From: an uncultured Gemmiger sp. | GTDB lineage: Bacteria; Bacillota; Clostridia; Oscillospirales; Ruminococcaceae | Length of the DNA stretch: 38,061 nt | Direction of reading: 5' to 3' | NCBI GenBank assembly: GCA_947631565.1 | Contig: CANRLV010000019.1 | Location: 1-38,061, forward strand | Part shown: piece by piece, positions 3,889-33,194 of the stretch | Position numbering within the stretch: position 1 is the stretch's first letter | Layout: every line of letters begins with the position of its first letter | Translations under genes and position numbers: made by a program | The notes under the pieces: model-generated | Databases searched by the model: none | Told to the model about the DNA's origin: nothing | Seen by the model: the letters and a program-made list of their open reading frames with translations, nothing else

Positions 3889-4796
3889 TGATGAATTTCC
3901 GTACCCTCACCTATGACAACGGCCTTATCCCGGCGATCATCTGGGGGCTGGGCAATTCTGTTGCGTGCATCCTGTTCGGACTGATCGCACAGCACCTGCC
4001 CACCGTGCGCGGCATCATGCGCACCAAGGTCATCACCTATATCCTCGGTTTCCTGACGCTGTTCCAGACCTGGACGAACATGAACGGCATCCGGGAGATC
4101 TTCGAGGACACACCAATCGGCACCACCGGCGGCACGGTCATCGTCTACGCGGTGTGTGCCTTTTTCATTGTGCTGCTGCTCCGCTACGGCATGATTCGCA
4201 ACGTCCTGACCGACAGCGCGTCCTGGTACGCGGTCTATGGCCTCATCATCCTGTTGACAGTGCTGGCCTACATCACGTCGGGCGGCGCCGTCAAGAGCGT
4301 GCCGATGGGCACAGACTGGGCCAACCTCAAAGTCGGGCTCTGGAAGGGCTTTTTGCTCCTGCCCGGGCCGTTCACCTACGCCTACTTCTTCGAGCTGCTC
4401 GACTACAACGACAGCAACAGCGACGCCACCGAAAAGGTCAACATCACCGCATCTTTTACGATGGGCGGCCTGATGTTCGGCTTTTATATGCTGTTCTCCT
4501 GCGCGCTGGCCCTTGTGGACTTCACGCCGGCACAGAACATCATCAAGGCCGTGCTGATTACCATCGTGGCGATCTCGAGCATTTCCAGCTTTCTCTACTC
4601 CGAGTACATCCTGTTCGGCAAGAAGATCGGCCTTGTGGTCGATATCTTCATCACGCTGTTTTGGCCGCTGGTCGTGCCCTTGGGCGTGATGGGCGTCTGG
4701 ACGCTGATGAGTGAGATCCGCATCTATCTGGTCGCCGCCCTGCTGGTGGTTGCGCTCATAAAAAGAGCGCTGGCCAGAAAGGGGGCGGGCGCATGA
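3798..4796 (+). CDS. Multi-pass integral membrane protein (about 10 TM), unknown function
   Basis: This 332-residue protein has roughly ten hydrophobic segments, near residues 16-35, 43-65, 78-95, 113-133, 144-160, 182-199, 216-239, 247-272, 275-302 and 306-325. ATG 3798 follows AAAAGGAG; earlier in-frame starts lack a site. The glycine-rich early helices (AASWAGVGSLMNF, WGLGNSVACILFGLIA) resemble transporter cores of the SSF/LeuT kind, but I cannot identify a family. Its stop overlaps the start of the first PP-loop gene (ATGA), so it is translated with the PP-loop/ParB cassette. That makes it a plausible sensor, transporter or membrane partner of the cassette. Such a large transporter-like protein is unusual next to packaging genes. 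Confidence 0.7.
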   Translation: MLSNIVRKFKESPTAYYAMSIAASWAGVGSLMNFRTLTYDNGLIPAIIWGLGNSVACILFGLIAQHLPTVRGIMRTKVITYILGFLTLFQTWTNMNGIREIFEDTPIGTTGGTVIVYAVCAFFIVLLLRYGMIRNVLTDSASWYAVYGLIILLTVLAYITSGGAVKSVPMGTDWANLKVGLWKGFLLLPGPFTYAYFFELLDYNDSNSDATEKVNITASFTMGGLMFGFYMLFSCALALVDFTPAQNIIKAVLITIVAISSISSFLYSEYILFGKKIGLVVDIFITLFWPLVVPLGVMGVWTLMSEIRIYLVAALLVVALIKRALARKGAGA

Positions 4797-5575
4797 ACGC
4801 TACCCTCGGAAGAAAGCAGGTCAACAAGGGCAATGAGAGCTGGCAGCGCGTTGTCGACAACATCGAGGATCTCGTGACCCGCGAGGAATGCGACCGCGCC
4901 GCCGACGCCATGGCGGAGCGCATCGCCAACGCCACGGCCGGCAAGAAAGCTGCCTTTGCGTGGAGTGGCGGCAAGGATTCCCTTGTCCTGGCCGATATCT
5001 GCAAGCGCGTCGGTGTCACCAAATGCGCCCTGTTCATGACGCACCTGGAATTCCCGGTTTTCGAGAAATGGCTGCTGGAACATAAGCCGGACGGCTGCGA
5101 GGTCATCCAGTTGCCGTATGATCTCGACTGGATGGCCCAACACCCGGAAATGCTCTTCCCCAAGGGGAAGGAAATGCAGCTCTGGCACAAGCTGGTCCAG
5201 CGCCGCAGCATGATCGGCTACTTCAACAGCGCCCACCTCGATATCCTGATGATCGGGCACCGGCGCATCGATGGGAACACCTGCGGCAAAGAGGGCTACA
5301 CCAGGCGCAAGACCGGCGAGGTGCTGTATGCCCCCTTGTACGACTGGCCCCATGAGCTGATTTTCGCCTACATCCACTACCACGGCCTGGAAATGCCGCC
5401 CATCTACGGGTGGGAAAAAGGCTACTTCAACGGTACGCACTTCTGGCCGTCGCGCATCTGCGACAGCGTTGAGCAGGGCTACCGGGAGGTCTACGCCATC
5501 GACCCGTCCATTGTGGTCGCGGCCGCCGAGAAACTCGACAGCGCCCGCACCTTTCTCGAGGGGGTGAGCGCATGA
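4793..5575 (+). CDS. PP-loop ATPase, PAPS-reductase-like (first copy)
   Basis: This 260-residue protein has the PP-loop nucleotide-binding signature SGGKDS at residues 58-63, after a helical N-terminal extension. Further family-like features are GHRRIDGNTCGKEGY (about 155-169) and YDWPHELIFAYI (about 183-194), the segment in PAPS-reductase-like proteins that closes over the nucleotide. The fold activates a substrate with ATP or handles adenylyl-sulfate. DndC, which takes part in DNA phosphorothioation, belongs to the same superfamily. It overlaps both neighbours by 4 bases (ATGA), so translation is coupled. Its actual substrate is unknown. Confidence 0.8.
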   Translation: MNATLGRKQVNKGNESWQRVVDNIEDLVTREECDRAADAMAERIANATAGKKAAFAWSGGKDSLVLADICKRVGVTKCALFMTHLEFPVFEKWLLEHKPDGCEVIQLPYDLDWMAQHPEMLFPKGKEMQLWHKLVQRRSMIGYFNSAHLDILMIGHRRIDGNTCGKEGYTRRKTGEVLYAPLYDWPHELIFAYIHYHGLEMPPIYGWEKGYFNGTHFWPSRICDSVEQGYREVYAIDPSIVVAAAEKLDSARTFLEGVSA

Positions 5576-6159
5576 ACGTCGTGGTAAAGAAACTCTCCGA
5601 TCTGCACGAGCCGGAAAAGAACGTGCGGCGCCACACCGACAAGCAACTGGCCGAGTACGTCCGCTCCATTGAAATGTTCGGCCAGATAAAGCCGCTGGTC
5701 ATCACCGAGGACGGTGAGATCCTCGCCGGCAACGGCCTGTACCTCGCCCTCAAACAGATGGGCCGCGAGACCGCCGACTGCTACGTCATGGCGGGCCTGA
5801 CCCCGGCGCAGCGCAAGAAGGTCATGCTGGCCGACAACCGAGTGTTTGAGCTCGGCATCACCGACACGGATATCTTCGATGAGATCATCAAGGAGCTTGA
5901 CGGCGACGTCGACGTTCCCGGCTGGGATGCTGACCTGCTCACGATGCTCAATTCCAGTGTGACCGATGCCACCGGCATGGTCGAGGAATACGGTGCCTAT
6001 GACGCGGATGCTGTGAGCGCCATCAACAGCCGTGAGCGCGTGGACCATTCACAGCCGCTTGCGCCGGCCGCGCCCGCTGCGCCTGAGAGCGCCGGCCCCG
6101 ATGCCCCGGTTGAGCGGTTTGTGATCTGCCCGAAATGCGGTGAGCGGATATGCCTATAA
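5572..6159 (+). CDS. ParB/sulfiredoxin-fold protein with C-terminal zinc knuckle (first copy)
   Basis: This 195-residue protein has an N-terminal ParB-like domain: SDLHEPEKNVRRH at about 9-21, then the core phosphate-binding stretch GEILAGNGLYLAL at 48-60. Family members use this region to bind or hydrolyse nucleotides. A helical segment follows (about 77-120), then an Ala/Pro-rich linker and a C-terminal CPKC (186-189) with Cys194, a likely zinc site. Phage proteins of this type are often annotated as ParB-like nucleases or methylase-associated proteins. It overlaps the preceding gene by 4 bases and the following one by 10. It is not a segregation ParB: there is no ParA or parS context. Confidence 0.75.
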   Translation: MNVVVKKLSDLHEPEKNVRRHTDKQLAEYVRSIEMFGQIKPLVITEDGEILAGNGLYLALKQMGRETADCYVMAGLTPAQRKKVMLADNRVFELGITDTDIFDEIIKELDGDVDVPGWDADLLTMLNSSVTDATGMVEEYGAYDADAVSAINSRERVDHSQPLAPAAPAAPESAGPDAPVERFVICPKCGERICL

Positions 6160-7283
6160 GAAAGCTGGAAAGCACCATCGATGTGCTGGAGGCGGCCAAG
6201 CGGCGTATCAAAAACCTGTTCGACAGCGGCGCCAAGGTCTACCTCAGTTTTTCATCGGGCAAGGACAGCCTGTGCATGTCGTCCATCACCTACGACCTCA
6301 TCCGCTCCGGCCAGATAAACCCAAAGCAGTTGACGGTCACGTTCATCGACGAGGAAGGGCTTTACCCCTCCATGGTGGACGCGGCCGAGCGGTGGCGGCG
6401 CCTGTTCAACGGCGTCGGCGTACCGTTCCAGTGGTTTTGCCTGCCCTTCAAGCAGGTCTCGGTCATCGACCACCTTTCCAGCTCGGAAAGCTGGATAACG
6501 TGGGAGCCGGGCAAAGAGGATGTATGGATGCGCAAGCCGCCAAAAGGCGCCATCATGCACAGCCCATATCTGCACTACCCGGGCGAAATGAACTACCAGA
6601 CCTTTTGCACAAAGGCATTCGCGGACGGCGTCCAGATGGTCGGCCTGCGCACGGTGGAATCTGTGACGCGGCTGCACGCCATCGCAAGGACGGACATGCG
6701 CACGCCAGGCGGCAAGTTCTATCCGATCTACGACTGGAAGGATAGCGATGTCTGGCTCTACATCAAGGACCGCGGGCTTGAATTCCCGGAGATCTATATG
6801 CGCCTGTACGAAGCCGGCGTGCGGAAGAACGCACTCCGGCTGTGCGCCTTTTTCGGGGACTGCGGTACGCAGGGCCTGCGCTGGATTGCGGAGACCGACC
6901 CGGAGCTCTGGGAGAAAATCGAGCGCCGGGAACCGAACGCCTACCTGGTGCTGCTCTACTGGGACAGCGAAATGTTCCGGCGCTCCACCTCAAAGCGGCG
7001 GGAACTCGAAGCCCAGGAAGGGCCGAAAGACTACCGTGCCCTGTGCAAGGATATCCTGTTCCTGCACCCGGAGAACTACACCATAGCGAAGGACACCAAA
7101 AAGAACCTCGACCAATGGCGGCACCTGTTCATCAAGACCTACGGCGTCGCCACCCAGAAGCACTACAAGACCATGTACGAGGGCCTGCTCTACGGCGACC
7201 CGAAAATGCGCATACTCCGCATCCTCTGGACGACGATCTACACAGACTACAATTCGTCCACGAAAAAGGGGGTGAGGAAGTGA
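6150..7283 (+). CDS. PAPS-reductase/DUF3440-like PP-loop protein (IbrA/YbdN-like, second copy)
   Basis: This 377-residue protein has a PP-loop motif SSGKDS at residues 35-40, GLRTVESVTR at 165-174 and YPIYDWKDSDVW at 191-202. A long C-terminal region follows (MRLYEAGVRKNALRLCAFFG and beyond), of the sort seen in DUF3440 proteins such as E. coli YbdN and IbrA. It is immediately followed by a ParB-like gene, as IbrA pairs with IbrB and YbdN with YbdM. IbrA/IbrB are known from a prophage-like locus as regulators of surface-protein (Eib) expression; the biochemical reaction is not settled. The start overlaps the upstream gene by 10 bases. Confidence 0.8.
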   Translation: MPIRKLESTIDVLEAAKRRIKNLFDSGAKVYLSFSSGKDSLCMSSITYDLIRSGQINPKQLTVTFIDEEGLYPSMVDAAERWRRLFNGVGVPFQWFCLPFKQVSVIDHLSSSESWITWEPGKEDVWMRKPPKGAIMHSPYLHYPGEMNYQTFCTKAFADGVQMVGLRTVESVTRLHAIARTDMRTPGGKFYPIYDWKDSDVWLYIKDRGLEFPEIYMRLYEAGVRKNALRLCAFFGDCGTQGLRWIAETDPELWEKIERREPNAYLVLLYWDSEMFRRSTSKRRELEAQEGPKDYRALCKDILFLHPENYTIAKDTKKNLDQWRHLFIKTYGVATQKHYKTMYEGLLYGDPKMRILRILWTTIYTDYNSSTKKGVRK

Positions 7284-24134: not shown

Positions 24135-24346
24135 ACACCTACCGCACCAAGCAGGGCGACATGTGGGACAGTATCGCCTATACCCAGATGGGCGATACCG
24201 CCTACACTGACCGCCTGATGAACCTTAACCGACAGTATAAGGATCTCTACACACTCCCGGCCGGCTTGATCTTGACCCTTCCGGACGAGGACCCCAAAAT
24301 CATTGAGACGTTGCCGCCCTGGAAGAAGAAAGTGGTGATCGTATGA
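24131..24346 (+). CDS. Tail protein X, LysM-like
   Basis: This 71-residue protein has the P2 gpX pattern: YRTKQGDMWDSIAYTQMGD, then DRLMNLNRQYKDL and LPAGLILTLPD, a LysM-type fold. In P2-like tails it links the baseplate hub to the tube and may contact peptidoglycan. It overlaps the tape measure stop and the gpD start by 4 bases on each side, as in P2-like operons. Confidence 0.87.
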   Translation: MNTYRTKQGDMWDSIAYTQMGDTAYTDRLMNLNRQYKDLYTLPAGLILTLPDEDPKIIETLPPWKKKVVIV

Positions 24347-25761
24347 GCGACAGCGCTATTGCCCGCCGCGCCACCATGCGCCTGTCGTTTGATGGCGCGG
24401 ATATCACCAACGACATTGCACCCTACTTCTTGTCGGCCACCTATACCGACAACGAGGAAGACGCCAGCGACGACCTGCAGATCGTGTTACAGGACCGGGA
24501 TAAAATCTGGCTCTGCTCATGGCTTGAAAAGATGGTCAACGCTGTGCGGTACGAAGAATCCGAGGTAACAGTAAAGACCACGGAAGAGGTCTCGTCGGGC
24601 GGCGGCGGTAGTGGCGGCGGCGCCGGCGGCGGTTCTTTCAAGGTCGGCGACAAGGTGCAGTTCCTTGGCGGGCCACACTATGTTTCCAGTACCGCCAAAA
24701 CGCCGCCGAACTCTCCCGGCCCCGGGCCGGCAAAGCTGACCATCATCAAGAACGGCGCCCTGCACCCGTACCACGTCATTCACACAGACAGCACCACCCG
24801 CGTCTACGGCTGGGTCAACATGAACCAGATCGCGCCGCTCGGCGGCGGGGCCGGCGGCGGCAGCCAGACCGTGGAGGTGTACACCACCAAAAAGGTCTCT
24901 ACGTCGACCGGCCTGAAAATCCGGGCGACCATCGACGTCATGAACTGGAACAGCGATGGCGGCGACAGGTCCCTCGGCTGCGGGGAATTTGAGCTTGATT
25001 CCGTGAAGTGCAGCGGCACGCCGAACAGCGTCACGGTAAAGGCAACCTCGCTGCCGTTCACCAGCCGCATCCGGCAAACGAAACAGTCAAAAGCGTGGGA
25101 GGCCTACAACCTGTCCGGCATAGCCAAGGAAATGGCCGGCTTGAACGGGATGCGCTGCGACTACCTTGCCGGTGATGACCCCTACTACAGCCGCGTTGAG
25201 CAGTACCGCGCAAGCGATATCGACTTTCTCTCAAAGCTGTGCCACGATGCCGGCCTTTCCCTCAAAGCCACCGACAACACCATTGTCATCTTCGACCAGC
25301 GGGAATATGAGGCCGGATCTCCCGCCATCACCGTTACCAACGGCGATGGCAGCTATTTGAAGTACAGCCTTGATACCGGCCAGGCAGAGGTGCAGTATTC
25401 GTCATGCCGGGTGTCCTACAATGACCCGTCCAAGGGCTATATCGAGGGCACAGCCTATGTCGACGACTTCGACCCTGACGCATCGAAAACCAACCAGCAG
25501 TTGGAGATCTACGCCCGCGTCGGCAGCGTCGCCGAGGCCAAGGAGCTGGCCGCGAAGAATCTGCGCTTGCGGAACAAGTTTGAACGCAGCGTGTCCTTCA
25601 CCTTCCCGGGGAATCCCGCTCTTGTGGCCGGCGTCACCTTCAACGTGGCCGGCTGGGGCCTTTGGGATGGCCGGTACATCATCAAGCAGGCCAAGCACAC
25701 TGTTTCCGGCAGCGGCTACACGGTACAGGTAAAGGGCCGGAAAGTATTGGAGGGATACTGA
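24343..25761 (+). CDS. Baseplate hub protein, P2 gpD-like, with an inserted SH3-like domain
   Basis: This 472-residue protein resembles late control protein D: beta-rich N-terminus (RLSFDGADITNDIAPYFLS), then SLPFTSRIRQTKQSKAWEAY, DYLAGDDPYYSRVEQYRASD and DFLSKLCHDAGLSLK, with the closing VAGVTFNVAGWGLWDGRYII. It forms the trimeric hub above the spike. Residues 85-98 (GGGGSGGGAGGGS) and 167-174 (GGGAGGGS) are Gly/Ser linkers that flank a small domain (99-166, FKVGDKVQFLGG to YGWVNMNQIAPL) with the look of a bacterial SH3 domain. This is absent from the P2 protein and makes the hub longer than usual. Confidence 0.85.
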   Translation: MSDSAIARRATMRLSFDGADITNDIAPYFLSATYTDNEEDASDDLQIVLQDRDKIWLCSWLEKMVNAVRYEESEVTVKTTEEVSSGGGGSGGGAGGGSFKVGDKVQFLGGPHYVSSTAKTPPNSPGPGPAKLTIIKNGALHPYHVIHTDSTTRVYGWVNMNQIAPLGGGAGGGSQTVEVYTTKKVSTSTGLKIRATIDVMNWNSDGGDRSLGCGEFELDSVKCSGTPNSVTVKATSLPFTSRIRQTKQSKAWEAYNLSGIAKEMAGLNGMRCDYLAGDDPYYSRVEQYRASDIDFLSKLCHDAGLSLKATDNTIVIFDQREYEAGSPAITVTNGDGSYLKYSLDTGQAEVQYSSCRVSYNDPSKGYIEGTAYVDDFDPDASKTNQQLEIYARVGSVAEAKELAAKNLRLRNKFERSVSFTFPGNPALVAGVTFNVAGWGLWDGRYIIKQAKHTVSGSGYTVQVKGRKVLEGY

Positions 25762-30143: not shown

Positions 30144-31247
30144 ATGCCTAATTTTGACCTTTCCGCGCTGGCCCTTGCCAGCGTCTGCCCCGGCAACGAG
30201 ATTCTCTATGACGACCGCGGCCTGCCGAGCGTCATGGTGAAGATCCCGAAGATGACCCATGCCCAGTTGGGCATGGGCGCATCCGAAGCGACGCACCCGG
30301 CTTTCATCATCAACGGCCAGGAGGTCGATGCGATCTATATCTCCAAATTCCAGAACGTCGTCCAGGACGGCCGCGCCTACTCGCTGCCCGGCGTTGACCC
30401 CCGCGTCAACGTCAACTTCGACCAGGCGGTGCAGTATTGCCAGGCCAAGGGCGAAGGCTGGCACCTCATGACCCGCATGGAGTGGGGCGCAATCGTCCGC
30501 TGGTGCCAGAAGAATGGCGTCATGCCGAAGGGGAACAACAACTACGGCAAGCACAACACCGAGACCGTGTACAAGGCCATCCCGACGTGCAAGGTGCTGG
30601 ATACCTGGAATGACCCGAGCCATGTCGGGCAGACCGCCCGCATCGCCACCGGCACCGGCCCGCTCACCTGGAGCCACGACGGCACCCCGTCCGGCATCTT
30701 CGACCTGTGCGGCAACGTCTGGGAATGGACCGGTGGCATTCGCATGGTTCATGGCGAGCTCCAGATGCTGGCCAACAACAACGCCGCCGACAGCGCCCAT
30801 TCGCAGGGTGCGTCCAGCGTCGACTGGAAAGCGATCAGGGGCTCCGATGGTGAGCTCGTCACGCCGGACGGCTCTGGCACCACGTCCGGCACGGTCAAGC
30901 TGTACTGGCAGTCCAGCGCCATCCATGTCGGCCTCACCGTGCCCGAGCAGGACACCTACCACAACTGCGCCATCAAGAACATCGTTGTGGATTCCGGCGT
31001 CGAAGACAAGGCCAAGGCCATCCTGCAGAACCTCGGCATGATTCAGTACGGCGAAGGGCCCGAACTCTTTGCCGATCATCACGGCTGGATTAACGCTGCC
31101 GAGGCCGAGCGGCTGTTCTCCTCGGGTTGCCTCTGGAGCCATTCCGCGACGGGCGGCGTCGCGTCGTTCGACGGCCACGGCCGCGGCCACTCGCTCGTCT
31201 ACTTGGGCTTCCGCTCCGCTTTTGTGAAACTGCCCGCTGAAAGCTGA
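30144..31247 (+). CDS. DGR target protein, C-type-lectin/FGE-like fold (receptor-binding tip)
   Basis: This 367-residue protein has the formylglycine-generating-enzyme-like lectin fold found in many DGR targets: AIYISKFQNVV (64-74), WHLMTRMEWGAIVRW (106-120), FDLCGNVWEW (186-195) and the closing LGFRSAF (354-360). The catalytic activity of FGE is not expected; the fold serves as a binding scaffold. Residues 323-360 are encoded by the variable repeat. Ten positions vary from the template: 326, 330, 332, 333, 335, 343, 345, 349, 351, 353. AAGGAGG precedes ATG 30144. It is probably the adhesin that picks the host receptor. Confidence 0.92.
   Translation: MPNFDLSALALASVCPGNEILYDDRGLPSVMVKIPKMTHAQLGMGASEATHPAFIINGQEVDAIYISKFQNVVQDGRAYSLPGVDPRVNVNFDQAVQYCQAKGEGWHLMTRMEWGAIVRWCQKNGVMPKGNNNYGKHNTETVYKAIPTCKVLDTWNDPSHVGQTARIATGTGPLTWSHDGTPSGIFDLCGNVWEWTGGIRMVHGELQMLANNNAADSAHSQGASSVDWKAIRGSDGELVTPDGSGTTSGTVKLYWQSSAIHVGLTVPEQDTYHNCAIKNIVVDSGVEDKAKAILQNLGMIQYGEGPELFADHHGWINAAEAERLFSSGCLWSHSATGGVASFDGHGRGHSLVYLGFRSAFVKLPAES
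31108..31222 (+). repeat. Variable repeat (VR) of the DGR
   Basis: These 115 bases align to the template repeat at 31777-31894. There are 13 substitutions and every one is at an adenine of the template. Non-adenine bases are unchanged. VR lacks one AAC codon relative to the template (a 3-base gap at about 31176-31178). The last 20 bases (TTGGGCTTCCGCTCCGCTTT) are identical in both copies and are where the initiation-of-mutagenic-homing site would be. Confidence 0.97.
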
Positions 31248-31256
31248 GGACTGTAT

Positions 31257-31276
31257 GACCCCGCGAAAGCGGGGTC
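31257..31276 (+). promoter_or_regulatory. DGR target-site hairpin/cruciform
   Basis: GACCCCGC (31257-31264), loop GAAA, GCGGGGTC (31269-31276): a perfect 8-bp stem with a GRNA-type tetraloop, 9 bases after the stop codon and 34 bases after VR. In Bordetella phage BPP-1 a hairpin of the same stem length and loop type downstream of VR marks the retrohoming target. Confidence 0.85.
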
Positions 31277-31284
31277 CGTTCTCT

Positions 31285-31320
31285 CGGCTCCGCGCTTGCG
31301 CGGAGCCGTAAAATTTTTTT
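31285..31320 (+). terminator. Intrinsic terminator after the DGR target gene
   Basis: CGGCTCCGCG (31285-31294) pairs perfectly with CGCGGAGCCG (31299-31308), a 10-bp stem with loop CTTG, then TAAAATTTTTTT. It ends the tail transcript and separates it from avd and the reverse transcriptase. Confidence 0.8.
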
Positions 31321-31322
31321 GC

Positions 31323-31345
31323 AAAATAACGAATTTCGTTATTTT
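31323..31345 (+). promoter_or_regulatory. AT-rich palindrome upstream of avd
   Basis: AAAATAACGAA (31323-31333) and TTCGTTATTTT (31335-31345) form an 11-bp perfect inverted repeat around a single T. It sits in a sharply AT-rich island (31310-31395) in a GC-rich genome, before a TATAAT at 31380-31385. It could be an operator, a bidirectional terminator arm or a recombination site. No -35 at good spacing is visible. Confidence 0.5.
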
Positions 31346-31411
31346 AGAACAAAAACGGGTAGGTTCGACAAAAGCAGACTATAATTCTTCAAAGGGAAGG
31401 GGGCGCCCGCC

Positions 31412-31777
31412 ATGGCTGAAGAACTGAAAATCATCCAAAAGCTGGATGAAATGATGGACTACGCCGACGCGGCTTTAGACCAATTCCCCAGGACGAAAAA
31501 GGTCAGCCTCGGCGCGAAGATGCAAGACCAGATGGACATAATGCTCACGTCCTGCATCCGCGCCCGGAAGGGCTATAACACACTGGCTGCCTTGAAAGAC
31601 TTCGACGTCGCCATCATGGTGCTGCAGATTTATATCCGGCAAGCGTTCAGGCGCGGGTATCTGTCGCCCAAGAAGTACGAGGTCTGGTCCTCAAAGGTGG
31701 TCGAGATCGGCAAGATGTTAGGCGGCTGGATGAAGTCCGTCAAGCCCAGCCGGCCCGGCATGGGGAGTAGGCCGTAA
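31412..31777 (+). CDS. avd: DGR accessory variability determinant (Avd)
   Basis: This 121-residue protein forms the four-helix bundle known for Avd: EELKIIQKLDEMMDYADAAL, FPRTKKVSLGAKMQDQMDIM, AALKDFDVAIMVLQIYIRQA and the conserved YEVWSSKVVEIGKMLGGWMK near the C-terminus. Avd is a pentameric basic protein that binds the reverse transcriptase and the template RNA and is needed for cDNA synthesis. GGGAAGGGGG precedes ATG 31412. The stop TAA ends at 31777, the first base of the template repeat match. Confidence 0.92.
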   Translation: MAEELKIIQKLDEMMDYADAALDQFPRTKKVSLGAKMQDQMDIMLTSCIRARKGYNTLAALKDFDVAIMVLQIYIRQAFRRGYLSPKKYEVWSSKVVEIGKMLGGWMKSVKPSRPGMGSRP

Positions 31778-31894
31778 GCGGCTGTTCAACTCGGGTTGCA
31801 ACTGGAACAATTCCACGACGGGCGGCGTCGCGTCGTTCAACGGCAACAACGGCCGCGGCAACTCGAACGTCAACTTGGGCTTCCGCTCCGCTTT
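31777..31894 (+). repeat. Template repeat (TR) of the DGR
   Basis: These 118 bases start at the end of the avd stop codon. In the VR reading frame they hold eleven Asn codons (ten AAC, one AAT), which are the varied sites. It has 23 adenines: 13 substituted in VR, 2 within the deleted codon and 8 unchanged. TR is transcribed to RNA and copied by the reverse transcriptase with adenine-specific errors. Confidence 0.97.
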
Positions 31895-32063
31895 GCCTCC
31901 AAGCCTGACATTACAAGCTCAAGGGCTTGTTTTCCGTGCAGAGGTGATAAAGGGGCCTACTTCCGTGGTCAACACTGTTGGCCTATAAACACTATCTGTT
32001 TTGCCGGCGTTCCGACGCAGACCGCGCACGGCGCCTGTGGGGCAGACTTCGAGGTGTAGGCGT
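31895..32063 (+). ncRNA. TR-RT spacer, probable 3' part of the DGR template RNA
   Basis: No credible gene is seen in these 169 bases between TR and the reverse transcriptase. In BPP-1 the equivalent spacer is part of the template RNA and is needed for priming of cDNA and Avd/RT binding. A short stem (CAAGC with GCTTG near 31915-31931) is visible. The ncRNA role is inferred from the DGR layout. Confidence 0.6.
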
Positions 32064-33194
32064 ATGGAAAAGCACAGGCATCTCTTTGAAAAGTTCGTTA
32101 CTTTCAACAAGATGTATGACGGATATATCCTGGCACGGCAGCACAAGCGGTACCGGGGGAATGTGCTCGACTATTCTGCCAACCTCGAAGAAAATTTGAT
32201 TGACGCGGTAAACCGCTTGCAGTGGAAGATGTACAAGCCGGGGCCGCTCTGCCAGTTCTATGAGTATTTCCCCAAAATCCGCCTCATCAGCGCCCAGCCG
32301 TTCTATGACCGCGTCATCAACTGCGCGGCATATCTGACGCTCTGGCCGATCTACGAAAGGTCGTTCTACGAGCACAGCTACGGCAGCATACCGGGCCGCG
32401 GGCCGATTAAGGCCATCGACTGTTTGCAAGGATGGATGCGCAAGGCGCAGAGCAGCGGGCAGCAATGGTACATGGGCAAGGCGGACGTCCTCAAATTCTT
32501 CTTCCGCATACCGGTCGATGTGCAACTGCGGGAGCTTGGCCGCCCTATCGATGACCAGGATATGATGTGGTTCTTGGAGACGGCCATCCGCTGTGACGGC
32601 CGGCCGCTGGGCTTGCCGCTCTACTGCACCGACGTCACGACCGCCGAACGCATCGCGGGGATCGGGATGCAGGTTGGCTCTCTCATAAGCCAGATGACCG
32701 CCAATGTCGTGCTGTCGCCGTTGGACCATTACATCAAGCGAGAGCTGAAAGCGCCGTACTACATCCGCTACATGGATGATATGCTTGTGATGGCCCCATC
32801 AAAAGCAGAGGTATGGGATATCCTTTGCGGCATTGACGGATATCTGCGCGACAACCTCGGCTTGCAGCTTAACGACAAAACCGCCGTCGTTCCGGTCGGC
32901 CGCGGCATTGAGTACATCGGCAAGCGCGTCTGGCCCAACAAAGTCGAGCTCCGGCGATCTACCACGCTGCAGATGAAGCGGCACCTGCGGTTCGTCAAGG
33001 AAAAATACTCCGAGGGGAAACTTCCGCTCGAGTATTGCCACAGCGTCATGTGCAGCTACCTTGGCCTGATGAAATACTGCAACAACAACGCGCTGCGGAA
33101 CCAAATGCTCGAGGACTTCGTCCTTATCCGCGATTCCGAAAAGGCCGACCCAGCAAATGACTTTTTGACGGACGAACAGGATTTACCGTTCTAA
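32064..33194 (+). CDS. DGR reverse transcriptase
   Basis: This 376-residue protein starts at ATG 32064, 7 bases after GAGGTG; an upstream TTG at 32001 lies in the template RNA spacer and lacks a site. Motifs in order: SYGSIPGRGPIKAI (105-118), KADVLKFFFRI with catalytic Asp141, VGSLISQ (204-210), which is the DGR-type variant of the QGxxxSP box, and YMDD at 236-239 with the two catalytic Asp residues. The thumb follows. It copies TR RNA with adenine errors. DGR enzymes are typically about this size and lack RNase H and endonuclease domains, as here. Confidence 0.97.
   Translation: MEKHRHLFEKFVTFNKMYDGYILARQHKRYRGNVLDYSANLEENLIDAVNRLQWKMYKPGPLCQFYEYFPKIRLISAQPFYDRVINCAAYLTLWPIYERSFYEHSYGSIPGRGPIKAIDCLQGWMRKAQSSGQQWYMGKADVLKFFFRIPVDVQLRELGRPIDDQDMMWFLETAIRCDGRPLGLPLYCTDVTTAERIAGIGMQVGSLISQMTANVVLSPLDHYIKRELKAPYYIRYMDDMLVMAPSKAEVWDILCGIDGYLRDNLGLQLNDKTAVVPVGRGIEYIGKRVWPNKVELRRSTTLQMKRHLRFVKEKYSEGKLPLEYCHSVMCSYLGLMKYCNNNALRNQMLEDFVLIRDSEKADPANDFLTDEQDLPF

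Follow-up and report, generated by a model that had tools for sequence, protein, structure and literature searches.

Judged from its sequence, the 38,061 bp stretch analysed here (the window), an entire contig from an uncultured Gemmiger sp. genome bin, almost certainly carries a complete and probably working diversity-generating retroelement (DGR) of a contractile-tailed phage or prophage. Intact open reading frames (ORFs), substitutions between the template repeat (TR) and the variable region (VR) that fall on adenines only, a GAAA-loop hairpin past the VR, a target protein with a lectin fold, and relatives in which different VRs stand beside the same TR all support the DGR, as do the Avd, RT and target families, the codon make-up of the TR and the tail-operon setting. 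The initial annotation had described a complete element in the canonical order target gene, VR, hairpin, avd, TR and reverse transcriptase (RT), and our analysis confirmed both the order and the extent of the parts.

All of these parts lie on the + strand. The target gene (30144..31247) encodes a variable protein of 367 aa with an FGE-subtype C-type-lectin fold, and the VR (115 nt, 31108..31222, delimited by alignment to the TR) is the last part of its ORF. The accessory variability determinant avd (31412..31777, 121 aa; Pfam bAvd, E 2.8e-24; phrog_3206, E 8e-30) encodes the accessory protein usual, though not universal, in DGRs. It is followed by the TR (118 nt, 31777..31894), whose first base doubles as the final base of the avd stop codon, and by the RT (32064..33194, 376 aa), which is of the DGR type and matches RVT_1 (E 1.1e-16), phrog_1423 (E 5.3e-99) and the reverse transcriptase PDB 8UB7 (E 1.8e-31). 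The VGSLISQ and YMDD motifs noted initially are both present in the RT ORF; the SQ motif is a mark of DGR reverse transcriptases. The target hairpin, GACCCCGC-GAAA-GCGGGGTC (31257..31276), begins 34 nt past the VR end and has an 8-bp GC-rich stem. It folds better than shuffled sequences (z -5.1; 0/200 shuffles as good), and both its GC-rich stem and its GRNA-type loop are as expected of phage DGRs, in which stems of 7-10 bp have been described (PMC3240598).

Between TR and RT lies a spacer (Sp) of 169 nt (31895..32063), whose role may be assigned by analogy with Bordetella phage BPP-1 (PMC12875486, in the part of its text available). An alignment of 38 relatives gave no convincing conserved fold for the Sp RNA (RNAalifold structure conservation index 0.26; 14 of 20 pairs retained with at least two pair types). 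If the element works as in BPP-1, the RNA of TR and spacer would be bound by RT and Avd and copied in an error-prone manner opposite adenines. The resulting cDNA would then replace the VR of the target gene, and the stretch between VR and hairpin would help to mark the target.

All 13 TR-to-VR substitutions fall on TR adenines, as had been claimed (six to C, four to T and three to G), for which the hypergeometric chance is about 4e-12, given that 21 of the 115 aligned positions are A; the full TR contains 23 adenines, again in agreement with the initial count. Off the adenines the identity of TR and VR is perfect apart from a single in-frame gap of 3 nt (region 31150-31190), by which only one AAC remains in the VR where the TR has AAC-AAC. 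An AAC/AAT codon of the TR AAC repeat was lost independently in the VR of one relative (L050), the sole other case among 56 distinct TR/VR pairs, and the discussion of PMC12875486, in the part available, cites earlier work on AAC repeats that gained or lost bases by multiples of three and considers slippage. We therefore regard the codon loss as known slippage that calls for no new mechanism. The codons of the TR appear suited to variation: it contains ten AAY codons, and varying the first two bases of each yields 15 amino acids and no stop.

TR and VR share a 3' end of at least 20 identical nt ending in CGCTTT, the region of initiation of mutagenic homing (IMH). The few-base difference between IMH and IMH* known from BPP-1 is absent here, and the TR/VR homology just ends; identical IMH and IMH* are on record for one accepted DGR (PMC7290462, in the part covered). 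At the other end of the TR, a weaker short homology (AGGCCG, with a 2-nt gap) extends into avd.

For a comparison with relatives we assembled 83 sequences (74 IMG/VR loci, eight genome loci and the window), of which 82 have a target match, 67 reach the target end with enough downstream DNA, and 61 of these 67 have a TR. In their 56 distinct TR/VR pairs, 721 of 757 substitutions are located at TR adenines. Twelve pairs of relatives have an identical TR. The VRs are identical as well in six of these pairs and different in four; the other two include L056, for which only a fragment of 55 nt is aligned. The initial annotation had proposed a search for the same TR with different VRs changed only at TR adenines, and we carried this out in relatives with the four differing pairs and one pair with nearly identical TRs. 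Differences between VRs fall on TR adenines in 61 of 65 cases, and four of the five pairs behave as expected. In L051/L094 all 13 VR differences are at adenines, and the flanks (938 nt on the upstream side, 1800 nt on the downstream side) show none; L029/L030 and L080/L099 differ at adenines in 15/15 and 16/16 positions, and in L037/L042 the proportion is 14/16, the remaining two coinciding with differences between their TRs. The fifth pair, L055/L063, falls short with 3/5. These relatives' VRs, and not this phage itself, are the source of what is an indirect sign of adenine-mutagenic retrohoming.

Several observations nevertheless weigh against a complete and working element. No second copy of this phage was found in the searches made, and when the whole assembly was searched with the TR (E <= 0.001), only the VR and TR sites matched, so that the assembly holds a single VR. 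The codon gap in that VR departs from pure adenine substitution. Some relatives have many changes off the adenines (7/16 in L032, 5/16 in L077), and VRs are identical in the same-TR groups L085/L087, L057/L058, L044/L045 and L039/L040/L041, perhaps because one phage was sampled twice. Upstream of avd we found no sigma-70 consensus promoter on the + strand. The lone VR and the missing promoter, together with the lack of any direct sign of activity in this phage, could be taken to indicate a silenced DGR, with intact parts that are no longer expressed or active and a VR that is a fossil of past rewriting. We consider this improbable: all three ORFs are intact, the match of TR and VR away from adenines is interrupted by nothing but the one codon, and in close cassettes of relatives the VRs differ while the flanks are nearly or fully identical. 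A complete DGR that is probably functional remains our preferred interpretation.

How such an element might distinguish its target from its template is suggested by a periodic pattern between VR and hairpin, here called the YTG ladder (31230..31253 in the window, + strand), which may have a function in targeting. In the window, CTG triplets start at 31230, 31237, 31244 and 31251, i.e., 35, 28, 21 and 14 nt ahead of the hairpin loop, and the third rung overlaps the stop codon of the target gene. The ladder was first noticed in the VR-avd stretches of the relatives; the motif was chosen on the target family, and other sets provide a fairer test. We therefore extended the sampling to 16 reference-phage regions and to DGRs found by two RT alignments (best 80 loci each) and by Avd. 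Among 304 scripted sequences, a repeat pair with adenine bias was recovered in 165/228 and 59/76, in total 224, while 80 had no pair that satisfied the filter, which required at least 4 mismatches with 70% of them on one base and may have let some wrong pairs through. Sufficient clean flank was available for 221 of the 224 (three were short of flank or contained N); after removal of 64 flanks that were at least 75% alike, 157 were kept. Excluded from this set were L001-L020, L149 and L258, which repeat other loci, and L123-L148, which are weak FGE-domain matches.

Self-similarity of the first 45 nt past the VR, calculated independently of any motif, has its top lag at 7 (0.38, z 21.5 against base shuffles, a score that is not a probability). 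Further peaks occur at lags 8 (0.33), 15 (0.35) and 22 (0.32), compared to 0.24-0.29 in TR flanks. Chains of at least three YTG at steps of 7 or 8 nt are present in 92/157 VR flanks, counts in which related sequences are included, in 1/157 TR flanks and in about 1% of shuffles. By set, they occur in 36/39 flanks of the target family, 36/51 of the first RT alignment, 4/6 of the Avd-found genome loci, 7/15 of the reference phages and 9/46 of the second RT alignment. A looser YTK motif raises the last figure to 24/46 (shuffles 4%; TR flanks 3/157 overall). A step of 7 alone gives 52/157, 8 alone 13/157, and other spacings only 0-5/157. Other triplets perform poorly in VR flanks: the reverse complement CAR was found in 0/157 (TR flanks 4), RAC in 9/157 and GTY in 2/157. 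The ladder is phased to the hairpin loop. Of 111 non-redundant flanks, 83 have a hairpin with a GNNA loop, and in 70 of these 83 the nearest YTG (at a distance of at least 12 nt) precedes the loop by 13 or 14 nt; the spread is wider when distances are taken to the stem start or the VR end.

The ladder is not ubiquitous. The Ig/Hoc-type regions L158 and L161 lack it or have it only weakly, as do L276 and L278-L280 and also L159, L162 and L164; YPCBV-1 (L155) displays a single YTG only. In L293, L294, L297, L298 and L301, inspection by eye revealed ATCTT units at a similar step of 7-8 nt past the VR in place of YTG, and chains of at least three TCTK occur in 12/46 flanks of the second RT alignment. 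Three explanations of the triplet were considered and discarded or left aside. Pairing with a CAR ladder in the RNA past the TR was rejected, as lags 7 and 8 give 29 and 10 against 10-43 at other lags, without a peak. A cassette of stop codons (TGA in all frames) was set aside by eye, since many rungs run on as TGC or TGT. That CTG serves as a primase start site remained a mere thought; the portion of PMC12875486 covered reports an altered DnaG without effect on editing, a result called inconclusive there.

We regard the ladder as a robust sequence fact of this data set. It may be a signal by which the target is told from the template. The link to BPP-1 comes from the record vB_BbrP_003 (L163), of the BPP-1 type, in which YTG precedes the loop by 22 and 15 nt and GTG by 30, giving two rungs, which is below our chain of three. 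Its TR and VR differ at five positions in the IMH stretch, and two of these turn the CTG at 22 into CAC. Because these differences remove one rung, the ladder could be the general form of the target mark. We tentatively propose, at somewhat less than even odds, a general DGR target code in which YTG triplets (looser in some lineages, e.g., ATCTT) recur every 7-8 nt between VR end and hairpin, phased to the loop (mostly 13-14, 20-21, 28 and 35 nt before it) and absent beside the TR, an absence that would contribute to one-way homing. The code would be read by the complex of RT, Avd and RNA or by a host factor; the BPP-1 IMH would represent an abbreviated version of this code, and the five differences between IMH and IMH* would act partly through removal of a rung. 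Experiments on BPP-1 argue against a strict phase, as 3 additional bp in the spacer were tolerated and longer insertions lowered activity gradually (PMC3240598). In the same study, swapping the 4 nt of the BPP-1 spacer, which contain no YTG, had no effect.

Alternatively, the ladder may be a by-product of conserved protein coding, of tandem duplication or of shared ancestry of the sampled phages. Its first rungs indeed lie within the coding part, the flank looks coding in several loci of the second RT alignment, where chains are few, and L163 stops at two rungs. Relatedness within each set moreover makes the z-scores overstate independence, and the motif was picked on the target family. Steps of 7 and 8, on the other hand, shift the reading frame every time, and 44 of 46 target-family ladders have at least one rung starting past the stop codon. 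Near absence from TR flanks, the scarcity of other spacings and the tighter phasing to the loop than to stem start or VR end are likewise difficult to reconcile with a by-product, and the ladder also occurs with RTs only about 30% identical to that of the window. We therefore consider a by-product unlikely, and favour a signal function of the ladder.

The wider interest of the element lies in the ladder. In the literature covered, target/template discrimination has been worked out for BPP-1, and a simple periodic signature that DGRs have in common across phages of Firmicutes, Vibrio, Aeromonas and Pseudoalteromonas would make the question testable. It would also aid the recognition of target sites, including distant ones, from sequence. 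Literature searches brought up no mention of the ladder, and it is unmentioned in the parts covered of PMC12875486, PMC4891356, PMC10743442, PMC7290462, PMC4372165, PMC11792537, the text of PMC3240598 and PMC10053308. Figure 5 of PMC3240598, according to its legend, shows such flanks, and we consequently do not claim the ladder as unpublished.

The lectin fold initially ascribed to the target is corroborated by a predicted model with a mean pLDDT of 90.5. The model is by far closest to TaqVP, a DGR variable protein of solved structure; Mtd of BPP-1 is also among the matches. The gene, initially described as the last of a contractile-tail operon, follows tail sheath, tape measure and baseplate genes, which fits a tail-tip receptor-binding protein. 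Gene order and fold together suggest a tail-tip protein that attaches to the surface of the host, by which the phage would vary its receptor binding. The target might instead be varied for another purpose, e.g., as a mucus-sticking decoration of head or tail, or for an enzyme-like FGE activity. The fold family includes the enzymes FGE and EgtB, and Hoc-like DGR targets are reported from other gut phages (PMC5883640). This appears a rather poor fit to a gene placed directly after the baseplate genes and to a closest structural match among DGR variable proteins, and FGE activity in such proteins was considered unlikely in the part of PMC6328139 covered. We rate such other purposes as improbable and retain variation of receptor binding as the likelier role.

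Two further elements separate the target from avd. A terminator-like hairpin (31285-31308) with a T-run (whole element 31285..31320, +) follows the target hairpin; four terminator-like sites were found in the scanned region against 2.7 expected, so their count is not above chance. Between it and avd lies the palindrome AAAATAACG-n5-CGTTATTTT (31323..31345, no strand), the sole match in the assembly at up to one mismatch. Of 44 distinct intergenic regions between target and avd (each 120 nt or longer), 25 contain a dyad of this kind (ACG-n5-CGT core, half-sites of at least 6 bp), compared to 1/2200 shuffles. Its arms change together in relatives (TAACG/CGTTA, TTACG/CGTAA, TCACG/CGTGA). In viral_contigs an exact pattern of the palindrome occurs in 94 stretches, and 32 of the 80 loci listed adjoin a target gene or avd; matches elsewhere may be due to chance. 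The palindrome could be the operator of the avd-TR-RT unit.

The genome bin comprises 2.47 Mb in 140 contigs and is 89% complete. The window encodes terminase, portal, head protease, major head protein, tail sheath, tape measure, baseplate wedge and Tail_P2_I, all genes of a contractile-tailed phage, and the DGR cassette is located between Tail_P2_I and a holin with a CHAP-SH3 protein. A search of the window for terminal direct repeats (15-199 nt) was negative, and Rfam gave no match to it. Elsewhere in the window, two phosphoadenosine phosphosulfate reductase-like genes (4793-5575 and 6150-7283) flank a gene of the ParB-like nuclease type (5572-6159). Residues 73-163 of a tail protein (24343-25761) match the endolysin family phrog_20388 (E 7e-22), and residues 177-230 of the product of 401-1099 weakly match the transposase family phrog_151 (E 6.9e-6). 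Two more weak reverse-transcriptase matches occur in the same bin on contigs C49 (L011, E 5.9e-7) and C51 (L013, E 6.1e-5).

The closest known systems come from IMG/VR phages of rumen and gut and from genome bins of Clostridia (e.g., L052, L029, L103); these DGRs share the cassette order, the hairpin and the ladder. Their full-length targets are up to 63% and their RTs up to about 71% identical to those of the window, whereas their TRs reach at most about 82% identity. In viral_contigs, the exact TR stretch had no match, and a search with the single RT matched one stretch, with none confirmed. More distant are the DGRs of Bacillus phage BalMu-1 and Dulem virus 37 (target 38% and 49%, RT 40% and 35% identical), in which the ladder is present; the BalMu-1 hairpin is imperfect. 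TaqVP of Thermus aquaticus (PDB 5VF4) belongs to another host and element, and its sequence match is confined to residues 19-248.

BPP-1, as represented by vB_BbrP_003, shares the order target-avd-TR-RT, the Avd and RT families and a GAAA hairpin with an 8-bp stem, but its RT is only 28% identical to that of the window. Its VR/TR homology spans the 21-bp IMH and ends 4 nt before the hairpin, whereas the homology in the window ends 34 nt before. Faecalibacterium phage FP_Lagaffe (L151), a myovirus like the phage of the window, has a target 44% and an RT 38% identical to those of the window. Its annotation lists an Mtd-like target, an Avd-like protein and an RT, arranged as here, and 13/13 of its substitutions are at TR adenines. 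It differs in that its first rung is CCG instead of YTG and that our script found no hairpin with a 4-nt loop, in place of which an inverted repeat with a longer loop is visible by eye in the target flank. As a cassette, the element described here is a further case of a phage equipped to vary a presumed tail-tip protein; many are already known, of which Lagaffe is an annotated example.

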